From positions 1 to 39,521 of the forward strand of contig VBKI01000074.1 in NCBI GenBank assembly GCA_005879535.1: DNA of 39,521 nt. Direction: 5' to 3'. This document shows positions 8,813 to 14,297 of this stretch, in pieces. This stretch comes from Deltaproteobacteria bacterium. Its GTDB lineage: Bacteria; Myxococcota; Myxococcia; Myxococcales; 40CM-4-68-19. Position 1 is the first letter of the stretch. Each line of letters begins with the position of its first letter. The translations under genes and the position numbers were made by a program. The notes beneath the pieces were generated by a model. The model was not told where the DNA came from. It was given only the letters and a program-made list of their open reading frames with translations, and did no database searches.

Positions 8813-10341
8813 TTGTCGAGCCCCAGCTTTGCCGCCAGCCCGATCCGCTGCAGCTTTCCCGTCGGTCCGCGCGGCAGCTCGGTGACGAAGACGATCTTGT
8901 GCGGCACCTTGTAATGGGCGAGGTGCTTTCCGGCGAATTCCCGCAGCTCACGCTCGGTGGCCGTCTTCCCTTCCTTCAGCACCACCGCGGCCGCCACTTC
9001 CTCGCCCAGGTTCTCCTGCGGCATCCCGAACGTGAGCGCGAGTTGGACCGAGGGATGGTCCATCAGCACGACGTCGACCTCCAGCGGCGAAACCTTCTCG
9101 CCTCCGCGGTTGATCATCTCCTTCAGGCGACCGATGATCCGCAGATACCCGTCCTCGTCGAGCGAGCCTTGGTCGCCCGTGCGGAACCAGCCGTTGACGA
9201 ATGCCTTGGCGTTCGCTTCCGGGTTGTTGACGTAGCCGCGGGTGACGTTGGGACCGCGCACCACGATCTCGCCGCCCGCGCCCTGGGGAAGCAACGTGCC
9301 GGCATCGTCCATGATGCCGACCTCCGGGCCGGCGGCAATGCCGACCGAGCCGGGCTTGCGCGGCCGCGGAGGCAGTGGATTGGAGGCCATCTGGTGAGAC
9401 GCCTCGGTCATTCCATACGCCTCGATCACCGGCGCCTGGAACGCCGCCTCCAGCTCCGCCATCAGGCGAGGGCGCAGCGAGGCCGACGACGAGCGGAGCA
9501 ACCGCAGCCGCCGGCGAGCGAGGATCTCCTTGTTCCGCTCGGCGCGGCCGAGGATCGCGCGATGCATGGTGGGAACGCCAGTGGTCCAGGTGGGGTGAAT
9601 CTCCTCGACCCAGTGGAAGAAACGCAGCGCATTGAACCCCGGGGTCACGAACACCTGCGCTCCCGCGGAGAGCGACGACAGCACACCCGCCACCAGCCCG
9701 TGGATGTGGAAGAGCGGCATGATCTGCAGGCAAGTGTCGTCCGGCGTCAGCGCGAGCGCGGCGGCGATGTGCCTCGCCGAGGCGCTCAAATTCGACTGCG
9801 TGAGCGGGACGAGCTTCGGGCGAGCTGTGGTTCCGCTGGTGTGCAGCAAAAGCGCGATGTCCTCACCCTTCCCGGTGCCCGGCGACTTCGCCTTTCCACG
9901 CAACGTCGGGGGAGCCTCCAGCCGGAAGGCCCCCGCGCCCTTTGCAGGCTCCGGATGCAGCTCGACGACGGGGATGGAGAGCTTCGCCGCCACCTTTCGC
10001 GCTGGCGAGTCCACGCCGGCCTCGACCACGAGGGCCTTCGGGCTCAGGTCGCCCAGGTAGAAGTCGAGCTCGTCCTCGCGGTAGCCGGGATTCAACGGCG
10101 CCGTCGCGACTCCCGTGGCGAGGCACGGGAAGGCAGCGGCCATTTCCGGCCCGTTGCGCAGGACCATCGCGACGCGGTCGCCGCGTCCGATTCCCATCGC
10201 GTTGACGGCGTCGATGGTGCGCGCCGCCAGCTCGCGCAAGGCGTGCCAGGTCAGCGGCTTCGAAGAATCGGGCGCGCTGATGGCGCTCGATCCGGCGGCG
10301 CCCCGCGAGAGCTGCGTCAGAATGGCGTCGGGATCCTGCAC
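8809..10341 (-). CDS. AMP-dependent acyl-CoA synthetase, oxalate/medium-chain type
   Basis: This 510-residue ANL-superfamily ligase activates a carboxylate with ATP to an acyl-adenylate and then a CoA thioester. Visible motifs are the P-loop LLLHTSGTTARPKLVPLTQ, the adenine/hinge region RTGDQGSLDEDGYLRIIGR followed by LKEMINRGGEKVSP, and the C-terminal catalytic lysine in RGPTGKLQR. The N-terminal segment ATAPLNPGYREDELDFYL resembles oxalyl-CoA synthetases of the AAE3 type, but the substrate cannot be read from sequence. It starts with GTG 13 nt after the hydrolase-like gene and overlaps the PanE-like gene by ATGA. Its place in a PHA synthase operon suggests that it activates a hydroxy acid for polymerisation or recycling. 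Confidence 0.88.
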   Translation of the reverse strand: MQDPDAILTQLSRGAAGSSAISAPDSSKPLTWHALRELAARTIDAVNAMGIGRGDRVAMVLRNGPEMAAAFPCLATGVATAPLNPGYREDELDFYLGDLSPKALVVEAGVDSPARKVAAKLSIPVVELHPEPAKGAGAFRLEAPPTLRGKAKSPGTGKGEDIALLLHTSGTTARPKLVPLTQSNLSASARHIAAALALTPDDTCLQIMPLFHIHGLVAGVLSSLSAGAQVFVTPGFNALRFFHWVEEIHPTWTTGVPTMHRAILGRAERNKEILARRRLRLLRSSSASLRPRLMAELEAAFQAPVIEAYGMTEASHQMASNPLPPRPRKPGSVGIAAGPEVGIMDDAGTLLPQGAGGEIVVRGPNVTRGYVNNPEANAKAFVNGWFRTGDQGSLDEDGYLRIIGRLKEMINRGGEKVSPLEVDVVLMDHPSVQLALTFGMPQENLGEEVAAAVVLKEGKTATERELREFAGKHLAHYKVPHKIVFVTELPRGPTGKLQRIGLAAKLGLDK

Positions 10342-10354
10342 GGTGTCGCGTCTA

Positions 10355-11443
10355 TCACGGACGCGCCTCCCCAGCGTGCATCGGTTCGCCGGATCCGTCC
10401 ACCTCGAAGCGCAACTCGCGATCGCCGAGGTTCTCGAAATGGCTCTCGACTTCCGCCTCGCTGACGTCGGCGAGCGACGAATGCCGCCACCTGGGCTTCT
10501 GGTCCTTGTCGATCAAGACGGCGCGCACGCCTTCGTAGAAGTCCGGGCCGGCGATCACGTGCATCATCGCGCGGTACTCGAGCGTCAACGCGTCTTCGAT
10601 CTCGAGAGCCGAGCCCTCCTGATTGACGCGCAATGCGAGCTTGAGGCTGAGCGGCGAGGCGCGATCCATCGCCGAGAGCGCGTCCTTTGCCCACTGCGAA
10701 TCCTCGCTCCGCAGCGCGGAGACGATCGCCTCGACCGTGTCGTGCCGGAAGCAGCGATCGATCGCCGGCCGCAGCGCCGCCAGCCTCGATCTTCCCGGAT
10801 CGGCGGCGAATCGCGCCACCACGGCGCCGACGTCCGCCGACTCAGTCGCCAACGCCTCGGCGAGCCCGGCGAACCGCGCTTGCGGCACGAAATGCCGCGC
10901 CAGCCCAAGGGACATCGCGTCCGCGGCATCCGCGCGCGCGCCGGTGAGCGAGAGAAAGAGACCGATCTTTCCGGGCGTACGGCCGAGGAACCGGGTGGCA
11001 GCGACGTCCGGAAACGACCCGATGAAGACCTCCGGCATGGCGAATACGGTGGTCTCCGAGGCGACGCAGTGTGAGCCGTTCACCGAGAGACCCGCTCCGC
11101 CGCCCATGGTGATTCCGTGCGTCAGCGCAACCCATGGTTTGCGGAAGCGGTGGATGCGCCGCATCAGGTGAAACTCTTCGCGGAAAAGCTCCGTCTTGTA
11201 GTCGCCGGGCCCAGGCGGATGATGGCGTGAGGCGTGCACGGCGCGCACGTCGCCGCCGGCGCAGAACGCGCGTCCTTCGCCGCGCAGCATCACCGCGTGC
11301 ACGGAGCGATCCGACTCCCAGGCGGCGATTTGCCGATCGAGCGAACGGACCATCTCCAGCGTCAGCGCGTTGAGCGCTTTCGGCCGGTTCAGCGTGGCGA
11401 CGCCGAGCCGGCGCCGCTGTTCGAACTGGACGCTGTCGATCAT
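10355..11443 (-). CDS. 3-hydroxyisobutyryl-CoA hydrolase-like crotonase-fold protein
   Basis: This 362-residue crotonase-superfamily protein has the length and motifs of the HIBCH subgroup rather than short enoyl-CoA hydratases. It shows GRAFCAGGDVRAV (first oxyanion-hole segment), GITMGGGAGLSVNG (second) and FAMPEVFIGSFPDVAATRFL, whose Glu and Asp match the catalytic pair of HIBCH. HIBCH releases 3-hydroxyisobutyrate in valine degradation. Its start overlaps the phaC stop (TGATG), so it is translated with the PHA synthase. In this setting it could trim or recycle hydroxyacyl-CoA, including branched C4 species such as those made by the neighbouring 2-HIBA locus. An enoyl-CoA hydratase role supplying PHA monomers is the main alternative. 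Confidence 0.85.
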   Translation of the reverse strand: MIDSVQFEQRRRLGVATLNRPKALNALTLEMVRSLDRQIAAWESDRSVHAVMLRGEGRAFCAGGDVRAVHASRHHPPGPGDYKTELFREEFHLMRRIHRFRKPWVALTHGITMGGGAGLSVNGSHCVASETTVFAMPEVFIGSFPDVAATRFLGRTPGKIGLFLSLTGARADAADAMSLGLARHFVPQARFAGLAEALATESADVGAVVARFAADPGRSRLAALRPAIDRCFRHDTVEAIVSALRSEDSQWAKDALSAMDRASPLSLKLALRVNQEGSALEIEDALTLEYRAMMHVIAGPDFYEGVRAVLIDKDQKPRWRHSSLADVSEAEVESHFENLGDRELRFEVDGSGEPMHAGEARP

Positions 11444-12522
11444 CAGTCGGACCGTGCTGCAATCCACGATTCGACCTTGGGCCACGTCCCCTTCGACGCC
11501 CCGCTGCCGGCCATCACGCCGATGTGACCACCCGGGACCTTCAGCTCCGTCTTGTCCAGGCTCCCCACCTTGTCGAGCAGCCGCGCAGACTGGCATGGCG
11601 GCGTGATGTGGTCGTCGACGGCGATGACGTTGAGGAGGTTCGCCCGCAGGTCGTTCAGATCGACCTTCTCGCCGCGGATGGTGAGCGTACCGTTCATCAG
11701 CTTGTTGCCGCGATAGAAGTCGACGATGAACTGGCGGTAGGCGCCGCCCGCGAGCGGGATGGCGTCGTTCACCCAGGTGTTCATGGCGTGCCAGGACTCG
11801 ACCACCTTCGGGTTGTCGAGGTTGTCCAGCAGCCGCACGTAGCCGCCGACGAAGTTCTCCACCGGCTTCAGCATCTTGGCGCCGTAATCGATCAGGCCGG
11901 CGGGCATGTTCCCGAACGCCTGCAACACGCGATCGACGTCGAAGTACCGCTCCTCGGTCATCCTCGCGAGCGAGATCTGCTCCCTGTCGGTGAAGTCCAG
12001 CGGCGCGGTCAGCAGGATCAGGCTCTTCAGCCCCTCTACGTTCCCGCGCAGCGACGCATAGAGCGTGGAGAGCATCGCTCCGATGCACCAGCCAAGCAGG
12101 TTGAACGTTTCCGAGCCGGAAACCGCCTTCAGCTTGCGCACCGCGCGGGGGATGTACTCCAGGGCGTAGTCGCCGAGGTTCATCTCCGCGTCTTCGGGAC
12201 CCGGGACGCCCCAGTCGAGCAGGTAGAGGTCGTATCCCTTGTTCAGCATGTACTCGACGAAGCTGTTTCCCGGGCGCAGGTCGAGGATCGACGAGCGGTT
12301 CATCAAGGCGAAGATCAGGAGCAGAGGGATGCGGTGGCGCTCCTCCGCCGGCTTCACAGGCGTGTACCGGTAGAGCGTCGCTTTGTTCAGCGTCCAGATG
12401 GCCTGGCGCGGGGTCTGGCCGATGGGTGCTTTGGTCGTGGTGACTTTGACCAGGTTATCGACCATCGTGGAAAACCGATCGAGGAGACCCGGCGAGCTTT
12501 CTTGCGTGCCGGCCAAGGTCAA
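11443..12522 (-). CDS. phaC: Class III poly(R)-hydroxyalkanoate synthase, PhaC subunit
   Basis: This 359-residue alpha/beta-hydrolase-fold polymerase has the length of class III PhaC (about 355), not the roughly 590 of class I. The lipase-like box is GWCIGA with catalytic Cys146. The Asp lies in AVDDHITPP (303-304) and the general-base His in PGGHIGVMAG (333). The conserved segments NRSSILDLRPG and GYDLYLLDWG are also present. It polymerises (R)-3-hydroxyacyl-CoA, normally 3-hydroxybutyryl-CoA, at the granule surface with a PhaE partner. The partner gene directly upstream overlaps it by ATGA, and the downstream hydrolase-like gene overlaps it by one base. Confidence 0.93.
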   Translation of the reverse strand: MTLAGTQESSPGLLDRFSTMVDNLVKVTTTKAPIGQTPRQAIWTLNKATLYRYTPVKPAEERHRIPLLLIFALMNRSSILDLRPGNSFVEYMLNKGYDLYLLDWGVPGPEDAEMNLGDYALEYIPRAVRKLKAVSGSETFNLLGWCIGAMLSTLYASLRGNVEGLKSLILLTAPLDFTDREQISLARMTEERYFDVDRVLQAFGNMPAGLIDYGAKMLKPVENFVGGYVRLLDNLDNPKVVESWHAMNTWVNDAIPLAGGAYRQFIVDFYRGNKLMNGTLTIRGEKVDLNDLRANLLNVIAVDDHITPPCQSARLLDKVGSLDKTELKVPGGHIGVMAGSGASKGTWPKVESWIAARSD

Positions 12523-12926
12523 GCCTCCTTGGCGGCGATGGACGACCCGTTGTCAGGCTTCACCTCGCGATCGCGCGCCGCCGGCCCGCGCTGAGGCCGC
12601 GGTCCCGCCGACCGTCGAAGCTGCTCGAGAGCGGCGCCGAGATCGTCGAGCGTCATCTCGATGTGCGTGAGCCGCTGGGCGATCCCGAGGACTTCTTCCC
12701 GCGAGGGCATGTTCATCTGCGCCAGCAGCGGAGACATTACCGACTCGCTGGCCTTGCGGAAGAGCGCCAGGCCGAGCAGCGCCGGCTTGACGATCATCCC
12801 CTGCAGCCGCTGGTACTCGTGCGAGCTGGTGAGGTTGAGCGCCAGTTTCGCCCAGGCGTCCATGACGCCGTCGCGCGCATCCTGCAACAGCTTCTTGACG
12901 TCGATCTTCTTCTCGGCCTCGCCCAT
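12519..12926 (-). CDS. Short PhaE-like PHA synthase subunit
   Basis: This 135-residue, mostly helical protein is coupled to phaC by an ATGA overlap, the place where class III/IV operons carry phaE or phaR. It has the segment LLAQMNMPSREEVLGIAQRL followed by a heptad-like helix (THIEMTLDDLGAALEQLRR). This resembles the C-terminal 'MN(M/L)PTRSEVDxLxRRxxELRR' region of PhaE. It is far shorter than Allochromatium PhaE (about 350) or Bacillus PhaR (about 200), so the N-terminal part is largely missing. The C-terminal tail is charged and probably disordered. GGAGG lies 5-6 nt upstream of the ATG. The assignment rests on context and the C-terminal motif; a phasin-like granule protein is the alternative. 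Confidence 0.65.
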   Translation of the reverse strand: MGEAEKKIDVKKLLQDARDGVMDAWAKLALNLTSSHEYQRLQGMIVKPALLGLALFRKASESVMSPLLAQMNMPSREEVLGIAQRLTHIEMTLDDLGAALEQLRRSAGPRPQRGPAARDREVKPDNGSSIAAKEA

Positions 12927-13013
12927 GTTCGCCTCCGCGATCAGTGATCTAATCCACTGGACAGGGAAAAGGGTACCCCTGCCGGAGGATGGCGGTTGGG
13001 TTCTCGAGGCCAG

Positions 13014-13042
13014 GGTCCGGCCGCCCGTTGGGCGACCGGACC
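13014..13042 (-). terminator. Strong hairpin between phasin and phaE-like genes
   Basis: An inverted repeat lies 8 nt beyond the phasin stop. The arms are GGTCCGG (13014-13020) plus CGCCC (13022-13026), pairing with GGGCG (13030-13034) plus CCGGACC (13036-13042), with a single internal C/A mismatch and a GTT loop. It gives 12 GC-rich base pairs. There is no T-run after it on the minus strand, so it is not a textbook intrinsic terminator. It may cause partial termination or protect the phasin mRNA 3' end, so that phasin exceeds synthase. Confidence 0.6.
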
Positions 13043-13050
13043 GATACCAC

Positions 13051-13308
13051 TTACGCCTTGGGCGTGAAGAGATCCGCGGCGCTGCGGGTCGCCGCCAGCA
13101 CCAGCTTCCGCCACTCGCCGCCGATCTGCTCGGCGAAGGCGATCTGCTCGTGCGCGGCGCGGTTCGCGCCCTCCACGAGCTCGTTCATCTGTGCCACGCT
13201 CTTGCTCTGCAGCCTGGCGAGCTCGGCAACCGCCGCCTCGAAGCGAGCGGTCTGCTCCGCGATGAGCTTTTCCATCGTGGGAATGGTCTTCTCGGTCTGT
13301 TCGGCCAT
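13051..13308 (-). CDS. phaP: Small phasin-like PHA granule protein
   Basis: This 85-residue protein begins MAEQTEKTIPTMEKLIAEQ and is almost wholly helical. It contains the phasin-type stretch FEAAVAELARLQSKSVAQMN, then helical segments rich in Ala, Glu and Gln ending with SAADLFTPKA. Phasins coat PHA granules and are made in large amounts. At 85 residues it is shorter than most (110-190). Its position as first gene of the PHA operon, with its own promoter and operator-like repeats, supports the call. The ATG at 13308 is preferred over an upstream ATG at 13398, which would place translation over the promoter; GGAG lies about 11 nt upstream. The strong hairpin follows its stop. Confidence 0.72.
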   Translation of the reverse strand: MAEQTEKTIPTMEKLIAEQTARFEAAVAELARLQSKSVAQMNELVEGANRAAHEQIAFAEQIGGEWRKLVLAATRSAADLFTPKA

Positions 13309-13356
13309 CTTGTCGTTGCTCCGGTATAAGAACGGGTCGTTGCCGGCCCGTTGGTT

Positions 13357-13374
13357 TTGTGCAGTGCAACATAA
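13357..13374. repeat. Operator-like repeat, copy 1 (TTGTGCAGTGCAACATAA)
   Basis: This 18-bp element contains the odd palindrome TGCA-G-TGCA and recurs with one mismatch 45 bp away. It covers the -10 and the predicted start of the phasin promoter. PHA operons are commonly controlled by PhaR, which binds granules and TGC-rich DNA; known sites in Paracoccus and Rhodobacter are of the CTGC-N-GCAG kind. The resemblance is suggestive, not proof. Confidence 0.6.
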
Positions 13375-13395
13375 CGTCTCGCTCTGCGCTGTCAA
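13368..13395 (-). promoter_or_regulatory. Sigma-70-type promoter for the phasin/PHA operon
   Basis: On the minus strand there is a perfect -35 hexamer TTGACA (13395-13390), a 16-bp spacer and TATGTT (13373-13368) as the -10, matching four of six consensus bases. Transcription would start near 13361, leaving about 53 nt of leader before the phasin ATG. The -10 lies inside one copy of the 18-bp repeat (13357-13374), and the other copy lies just upstream of the -35. That is the layout of a repressed promoter. Confidence 0.6.
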
Positions 13396-13401
13396 CATGA
13401 A

Positions 13402-13419
13402 TTGTGCAGTGCAACGTAA
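13402..13419. repeat. Operator-like repeat, copy 2 (TTGTGCAGTGCAACGTAA)
   Basis: This second copy is identical to the first except at one position (G for A) and has the same orientation. It sits 7 bp upstream of the -35 of the phasin promoter and 42 bp before the start of the divergent alpha/beta hydrolase. A protein bound here could affect both genes. The 45-bp start-to-start spacing is a little over four helical turns. Confidence 0.6.
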
Positions 13420-13460
13420 ACCCGCGGCGAAGCAGGTGCCTGTAGAGGGAGGGAGGGGCG

Positions 13461-14297
13461 ATGACCCAGGACATTGACCTGGAACTGTCGTCGGGAAGGC
13501 TGCACGCCCTGCGGTGGGGCCGCAGAGGGTCTTCGCCCGTGATCTGCATCCCGGGCCTCTCCTCGAATGCGCGCGCCTTCGACGCCATTGCAGCGGCTCT
13601 GACGCGGGAGGGGCATGAAGTGGTCGTGCTCGACCTGCGCGGACGCGGTCGCAGGCCGGCGGGCAGCCCCGGGACGCACGGTTGGCGGCGGCACGCCGAG
13701 AACGTGCTGGAAACGGCGCGTTTGCTCGAGTTTGCGTCCTTCGATCTCGTCGGCCACTCCATGGGCGCGTTCATCGCCATGCAAGCGGCTGCTTTGCGCG
13801 GGGACGGCATCCGGCGGCTGGTGCTGATCGACGGCGTCGGCGTGCCTGAAGCGGCGGCGATTCCACCCCTCCTCGCTGCAGTGCAACGCCTCGAAACCGT
13901 GTACCCGAGCCGGGAGGCGTACTGCGCGATGGTCCAGAGCCACGGAACGGCGGTCCCCTGGGACGAGCTCTGGAAGGAACATTTCCTCTACGAGCTCGAG
14001 GACGTGCCCTTCGGCGTCAGGCCGCGCACGTCGAAGGCGGCGGTGTTCGAGGACGTCGTCTACGGTTCGCAGCACGATGCAAGGACGTTCTGGCCGTCTC
14101 TTGACATGCCCACGCTGCTGGTCCGCGCCGCGCGCCCGCTGACGCCGGGCGGGGGGTCCGTGGTGGGCGCCGCGCTGCGCGACGAATTCATCCGCGCGGT
14201 GCCGTCCGCGAAGACGCTCGACGTCGATGCCAACCACTATGGCGTGATGGCGCACCCGGAAGCGCTGCGCGCCATCACTGGCTTTCTCACTTGTTGA
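13461..14297 (+). CDS. Alpha/beta hydrolase
   Basis: This 278-residue cytosolic alpha/beta-hydrolase-fold enzyme has an oxyanion-region motif ICIPGLSSNARAFD, a nucleophile elbow GHSMGAF, and a late His in NHYGVM that would complete the triad. GGGAGGGAGGGG directly upstream of the ATG is a strong ribosome binding site. It is divergent from the phasin gene and shares the operator-like repeats with it. That suggests a role with PHA or hydroxyacyl metabolism, for example an esterase, oligomer hydrolase or thioesterase. It does not resemble classic intracellular PhaZ depolymerases, so the substrate is unknown. Its 3' end overlaps the convergent MFS gene by 11 bp. Confidence 0.85.
   Translation: MTQDIDLELSSGRLHALRWGRRGSSPVICIPGLSSNARAFDAIAAALTREGHEVVVLDLRGRGRRPAGSPGTHGWRRHAENVLETARLLEFASFDLVGHSMGAFIAMQAAALRGDGIRRLVLIDGVGVPEAAAIPPLLAAVQRLETVYPSREAYCAMVQSHGTAVPWDELWKEHFLYELEDVPFGVRPRTSKAAVFEDVVYGSQHDARTFWPSLDMPTLLVRAARPLTPGGGSVVGAALRDEFIRAVPSAKTLDVDANHYGVMAHPEALRAITGFLTC

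Follow-up and report, generated by a model that had tools for sequence, protein, structure and literature searches.

The 39,521-nucleotide stretch analysed here (the window) carries a class III-type PHA synthase gene, phaC, preceded by a phaE-like gene and a small phasin-like gene, all on the minus strand behind one predicted promoter; an alpha/beta hydrolase gene runs divergently from the other side of that promoter (Table 1). The closest named PhaC, 77% identical, lies in an assembly labelled 'Deltaproteobacteria bacterium' (L018). Downstream of phaC are an enoyl-CoA hydratase-like gene, judged from a reading of its frame, and then a gene for an AMP-binding acyl-CoA ligase.

Table 1. Predicted features of the phasin promoter region and its flanking genes in the window
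Feature	Coordinates	Strand	Basis or remark
phaC, class III-type PHA synthase	11443..12522	-	TIGR01836, 344.9 bits over residues 16–357, cut-off of 365.3 not reached; class III is the nearest class
phaE-like small subunit (135 aa), next after the phasin-like gene in reading from the promoter	12519..12926	-	Position before phaC
Phasin-like gene, 85 aa	13051..13308	-	Gene order; resemblance to proteins in the same position in relatives
Proximal PhaR operator (predicted)	13357..13374	.	Shares TATGTT with the -10 and covers the predicted start; matrix score 27.7; complete in 3 of 9 phasin promoters (G000, G004, G008)
-10 TATGTT	13368..13373	-	Start inferred near 13361
-35 TTGACA	13390..13395	-	Promoter scan and promoter alignment
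Distal PhaR operator (predicted)	13402..13419	.	6 bp upstream of the phasin -35; matrix score 20.4; counterpart in 9 of 9 phasin promoters
Alpha/beta hydrolase, divergent, possible second target	13461..14297	+	PF00561

Scans of Pfam and NCBIfam gave no match for the 85-residue protein at E ≤ 0.001, and PF09361 is absent from the genome. What the original prediction called a phasin gene is therefore termed phasin-like, a name that gene order and likeness to like-placed proteins of relatives uphold and that no family model confirms at this threshold. The protein may still work like a phasin: it is small, its predicted fold is one long helix (residues 12–81; mean pLDDT 86.8, pTM 0.44), and in relatives its gene lies between phaR and phaC. 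Across nine like-placed proteins M1, K14, R22, E29, and R67 are invariant, and a search of solved structures with the phasin alignment returned weak, unrelated matches (best E 0.14). The 135-residue phaE-like protein likewise has no match in either database at E ≤ 0.001; its counterpart in the related genome G008 reaches PF09712 at E 0.018, below the cut-off.

The phasin-like and phaE-like genes are 124 bp apart. The intervening DNA encodes a strong hairpin of 13 bp that lacks a U-run, and the 130-nt stretch 12927–13056 folds at −60.2 kcal/mol (z −3.09); if the two genes share a transcript, this hairpin could keep its phasin segment more abundant. No second minus-strand promoter and no minus-strand terminator was found in positions 12900–13520. 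The phasin leader contains a short stem-loop at 13331–13352 that is terminator-like on the plus strand, with a fold that is not unusual (z −1.25).

Upstream of the phasin-like gene an 18-bp element occurs twice in the same orientation, as TTGTGCAGTGCAACATAA (proximal) and TTGTGCAGTGCAACGTAA (distal). As originally predicted, the copies are 45 bp apart start to start; the gap between them is 27 bp, and they differ at one base of 18. Each has the core TGCRNYGCA, here TGCAGTGCA, and the predicted palindrome TGCA-G-TGCA holds apart from its centre base. Allowing three mismatches, the 18-mer is matched twice in the window, where 0.01 matches are expected, and nowhere else in the whole genome (5,162,731 bases). 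A weight matrix trained on 17 sites in relatives, with the window's own sites excluded, picks out the same two copies and no other site in the 39.5 kb at a score of at least 6; in 111,034 bases of background DNA it returned 16 sites at that level and a single one at 12 or above.

The only promoter-like site in a scan of positions 12900–13520 is TTGACA/16/TATGTT on the minus strand (13395..13368; shuffles gave a mean of 0.0). It is of the sigma-70 type, and the consensus quality claimed for it is confined to the perfect −35, TATGTT agreeing with the −10 consensus at four of six positions. The claimed placement of the copies agrees with the scan: one overlaps the −10 and extends past the predicted start, and the other ends 6 bp short of the −35, so that one site sits upstream of the −35 and one over the −10 and the (predicted) start. 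Looping between the copies, which had also been suggested, is not needed, since 45 bp is short and falls between whole helical turns (45–46 bp in three genomes, or about 4.3 turns) and the spacing follows from the −35/−10 geometry. More distant loop partners, namely sites 0.5–0.8 kb away in relatives, were likewise set aside; gene calls place those of G008, G012, G018, G019, and G052 before phaR.

A search of 60 related genomes with the 85-residue protein gave phasin-like matches in eight, the genome itself included, and a further genome, G052, was added through its operators. When the nine phasin promoters (G000, G004, G008, G032, G028, G012, G019, G018, and G052) are aligned on the −35, an operator lies 6–8 bp upstream of TTGACA or TTGACG in every one, and the spacer is 16 bp in eight and 17 bp in one. 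The full proximal copy, fused to the −10, occurs in three promoters, all of the family to which the window belongs. Both copies are kept in G004, a member of the same genus, and in G008, at distances of 46 and 45 bp respectively, despite base changes in and between them.

Gene order links these promoters to phaR, phasin-like, and phaC genes. According to gene calls on the fetched stretches, phaR directly precedes the phasin-like gene in seven relatives (G004, G008, G012, G018, G019, G028, and G052), and phaC directly follows it in five (G012, G018, G019, G028, and G052), after only 6 bp in G019 and 10 bp in G018. A reductase gene and a phaE-like gene intervene before phaC in G008; no phaC follows in G004, and neither phaR nor phaC was seen on the stretch read from G032. 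In G012, a TTATGTTGC...GCACAA block also precedes a gene for acetyl-CoA acetyltransferase (L153), at a distance of 20 bp. G008 has, in order, the hydrolase, one operator, phaR, a pair of operators, and the phasin; the window lacks a phaR between hydrolase and phasin, so that relative to the G008 order phaR has probably been moved or lost.

The combination of operator and −35 is specific. Among 145 genomes of the order, the composite pattern TGTCAA-N6..8-TKNTGCRNYGCANMA gave a single match in each of 19, and its backwards control gave none. Profiles built in this analysis matched a phasin at 18 of the 19 loci and a PhaR2-type protein (see below) at 17, the exceptions being L184, with a phasin only, and L172, with neither. 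Seven of these 19 genomes had been used to build the pattern; among the 12 new ones, 11 contain both genes. In its exact form the pattern misses the window, owing to a single mismatch in the distal copy, and G052, which has TTGACG. The L172 match (genome G177) lies away from phasin and phaR, with a downstream frame that reads as an XRE-type regulator-like protein, and is probably a chance occurrence.

Scattering of the motif without relation to PHA genes had been named in advance as a finding that would speak against PhaR control. At the strict level it was not seen: of 15 exact sites in seven phasin genomes (G000, G004, G008, G018, G019, G028, and G052), the pha contig holds 14, two of which fall within a gene (G004 at 445 and G052 at 9031). 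With the looser pattern TKNTGCRNYGCANMA about half the sites lie elsewhere, as 52 sites in nine genomes divide equally, 26 on the pha contig—some of them within genes—and 26 off it, against 18 for the backwards control; G012 and G032, counted with this looser pattern, have 7 of 12 and 1 of 11 sites on the pha contig. Sites, mostly TGGTGC...GCACCA, also occur in family f4, whose genomes nearly all lack a phasin match; composition therefore matters, and exact-site counts per genome are no proof. In these GC-rich genomes the lone palindrome is not specific; the pair, or the operator plus a −35, is.

Beyond the order, 67 phaC neighbourhoods from other phyla (622,221 bases) contain 35 sites with at most one mismatch, versus 5 for the backwards pattern. 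A site within 2.5 kb upstream of phaC occurs in 18 of 43 genomes with PhaR and in 0 of 7 without it (Fisher p 0.04), a weakly supportive comparison that is confounded by phylum and drawn from 50 of the 67 loci, the other 17 having been left out by choice and not at random. PhaR-bearing Planctomycetes have no sites within 2.5 kb upstream of phaC. At five acidobacterial loci (L021, L027, L031, L034, and L035) TGTTGCASTGCAGCA lies about 1.2 kb upstream of phaC, and at other acidobacterial loci a divergent phaR lies 1.0–1.9 kb upstream.

The published motif and layout, the conservation, and the linkage to phaR together lend strong support to the PhaR-type repressor first proposed for the phasin promoter, and the two palindromes are very probably PhaR binding sites. 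The genome encodes two PHB_acc_N (PF07879) proteins that might occupy them, PhaR1 on contig C87 (L003) and PhaR2 on contig C47. Both score 93.9 bits against PF07879, over the cut-off, and neither reaches the 109.45 required by the PhaR equivalog model TIGR01848 (PhaR2 99.6 bits, PhaR1 83.3). In a tree of 47 PhaR domains, PhaR2 groups with seven phasin-linked PhaRs (support 98/92), and PhaR1 falls into a separate clade (99/99) with 29 further PhaRs of the order. The PhaR2 gene adjoins a gene that reads as depolymerase-like, with a similar neighbour in G004. Membership of the clade that adjoins phasin in relatives makes PhaR2 the likely regulator. Autorepression, also part of the original prediction, is supported in relatives by an operator in front of phaR, but not in this genome: near its own phaR genes no strong operator was found, the best scores being 8.8 (10 kb around the C47 gene) and 7.0 (9 kb around the C87 gene) versus 27.7 and 20.4 at the phasin promoter.

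The operators might be real but read by PhaR1, either by itself or jointly with PhaR2. The DNA-binding family of PhaR1 is the same, at an equal score, its C-terminus is weakly phasin-like (PF05597 at E 0.00025 and TIGR01837 at E 0.0018, both under the cut-off), and PF07879 proteins occur in 59 of the 60 related genomes. That near-universality, however, sets PhaR1 apart from phasins, which matched in only 8 of 60, and the phaR genes beside operator-bearing phasin genes belong only to the PhaR2 clade; we consider a role for PhaR1 improbable. A regulator of another family is less probable still: other regulators do recognise TGC-rich palindromes, and the operators were assigned from sequence, but motif, two-site layout, and linkage to phaR genes all fit PhaR. 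Chance, or a recent functionless duplication as the single difference in 18 bases might suggest, is very improbable, given two matches against 0.01 expected and the persistence of both copies in G004 and G008 while bases in and between them changed.

The favoured reading, which we hold with high confidence, is that the palindromes are PhaR operators, that repression of the phasin promoter is released by granules, and that PhaR2 is the regulator. In the absence of PHA granules, PhaR would occupy both operators, the distal one next to the −35 and the proximal one across the −10 and start, and would so keep RNA polymerase from using the promoter. Once granules appear, PhaR would be drawn onto the polymer and off the DNA—release through granule binding is described in the available text of a review (PMC9049629)—and the phasin would be made, perhaps along with the phaE-like and phaC products encoded behind it. 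A more speculative extension, to which we give limited credence, starts from the PHA synthase gene that follows the phasin-like gene: the promoter under PhaR control may drive this gene too. The polymer would then induce its own synthase by removing PhaR, creating a self-reinforcing switch between granule-free and granule-filled cells that the second operator, complete in this family alone, would tighten. Control of the synthase by its own product is thus a testable prediction.

The divergent hydrolase had been put forward as a second target, and PhaR control of it is plausible. Its relative in G008 starts at an operator; no plus-strand promoter for the hydrolase was found in the scan of 12900–13520. 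Some weight for the idea comes from the composite loci. In 9 of the 18 with a phasin the −35 faces the phasin, and in the other nine it points at a divergent gene, in the direction leading off from phaR; such genes may likewise belong to the regulon. Eight of these nine genes were read: seven encode a secreted-looking protein with the motif CRxGADCASGxC and one, in G012, an MFS-like permease. At L175–L178 and L180–L182 the CRxGADCASGxC protein is divergent from phaR and is faced by the PhaR-type promoter, and at several of these loci an alpha/beta-hydrolase-like lipoprotein follows; the CRxGADCASGxC protein is a possible new PhaR target.

Within the hydrolase gene itself, at 13877–13888, lies a third exact 12-base copy, TGCAGTGCAACG, for which shuffles gave an expectation of 0.00. 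Its alanine and glutamine codons are rare ones (across five window genes, GCT 0.05, GCA 0.06, and CAA 0.14). The fit to the operator fails in the left arm, and the matrix score of this copy is under 6. No counterpart was found in the G008 hydrolase. This copy could act as an auxiliary site.

An operator combined with a phasin promoter is an arrangement already known from other bacteria; among the open-access literature matches listed, no paper deals with PhaR operators in Myxococcota or Acidobacteriota. The present work would extend a much-studied product-sensing switch of proteobacterial bioplastic storage to a lineage for which no report was found in that literature. The promoter signature (operator, 6–8 bp, TTGACA) led to PHA genes at all but one of its 19 matches, among them genes for phasin-like proteins that family models miss.

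Three published systems allow comparison, each through the available text of its source. The Ralstonia eutropha PhaR consensus is YTKNTGCRNYGCANMAR, with the core TGCRNYGCA, and at phaP1 of strain H16 one PhaR site lies directly upstream of the −35 and another around the start, a further site being predicted inside phaP1 (PMC12849132). The window resembles this promoter in its palindrome with a one-base centre, the TGCRNYGCA core, the sites at the −35 and start, and the sigma-70 phasin promoter; over 17 positions of the consensus, copy 1 has one mismatch and copy 2 has three, which is the limit used in that study. Unlike R. eutropha phaP1, as far as that text describes it, the phasin-like gene of the window is followed by a phaE-like gene and phaC, and the putative cognate phaR is unlinked and without an operator.

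In Herbaspirillum seropedicae, PhbF (PhaR) recognises TG[N]TGC[N]3GCAA, as shown by footprinting, gel shifts, and reporter repression, and binds eleven PHA promoters (PMC3206438). Each window copy fits that motif with one mismatch in either direction; by contrast with the eleven promoters reported in the text available, only one promoter was found in the window's genome at the stringency used. PhaR (AniA) of Sinorhizobium meliloti has sites at the phaP1 and phaP2 promoters, where two palindromic copies flank the −35 (PMC12542648). The window shares the two palindromic copies on a phasin promoter, whereas the S. meliloti sites, in the same partial text, differ in that their arms are extended and AT-rich and the regulon is wide. 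Wherever sequence allows a comparison, autoregulation excepted, the window promoter follows the known PhaR plan.
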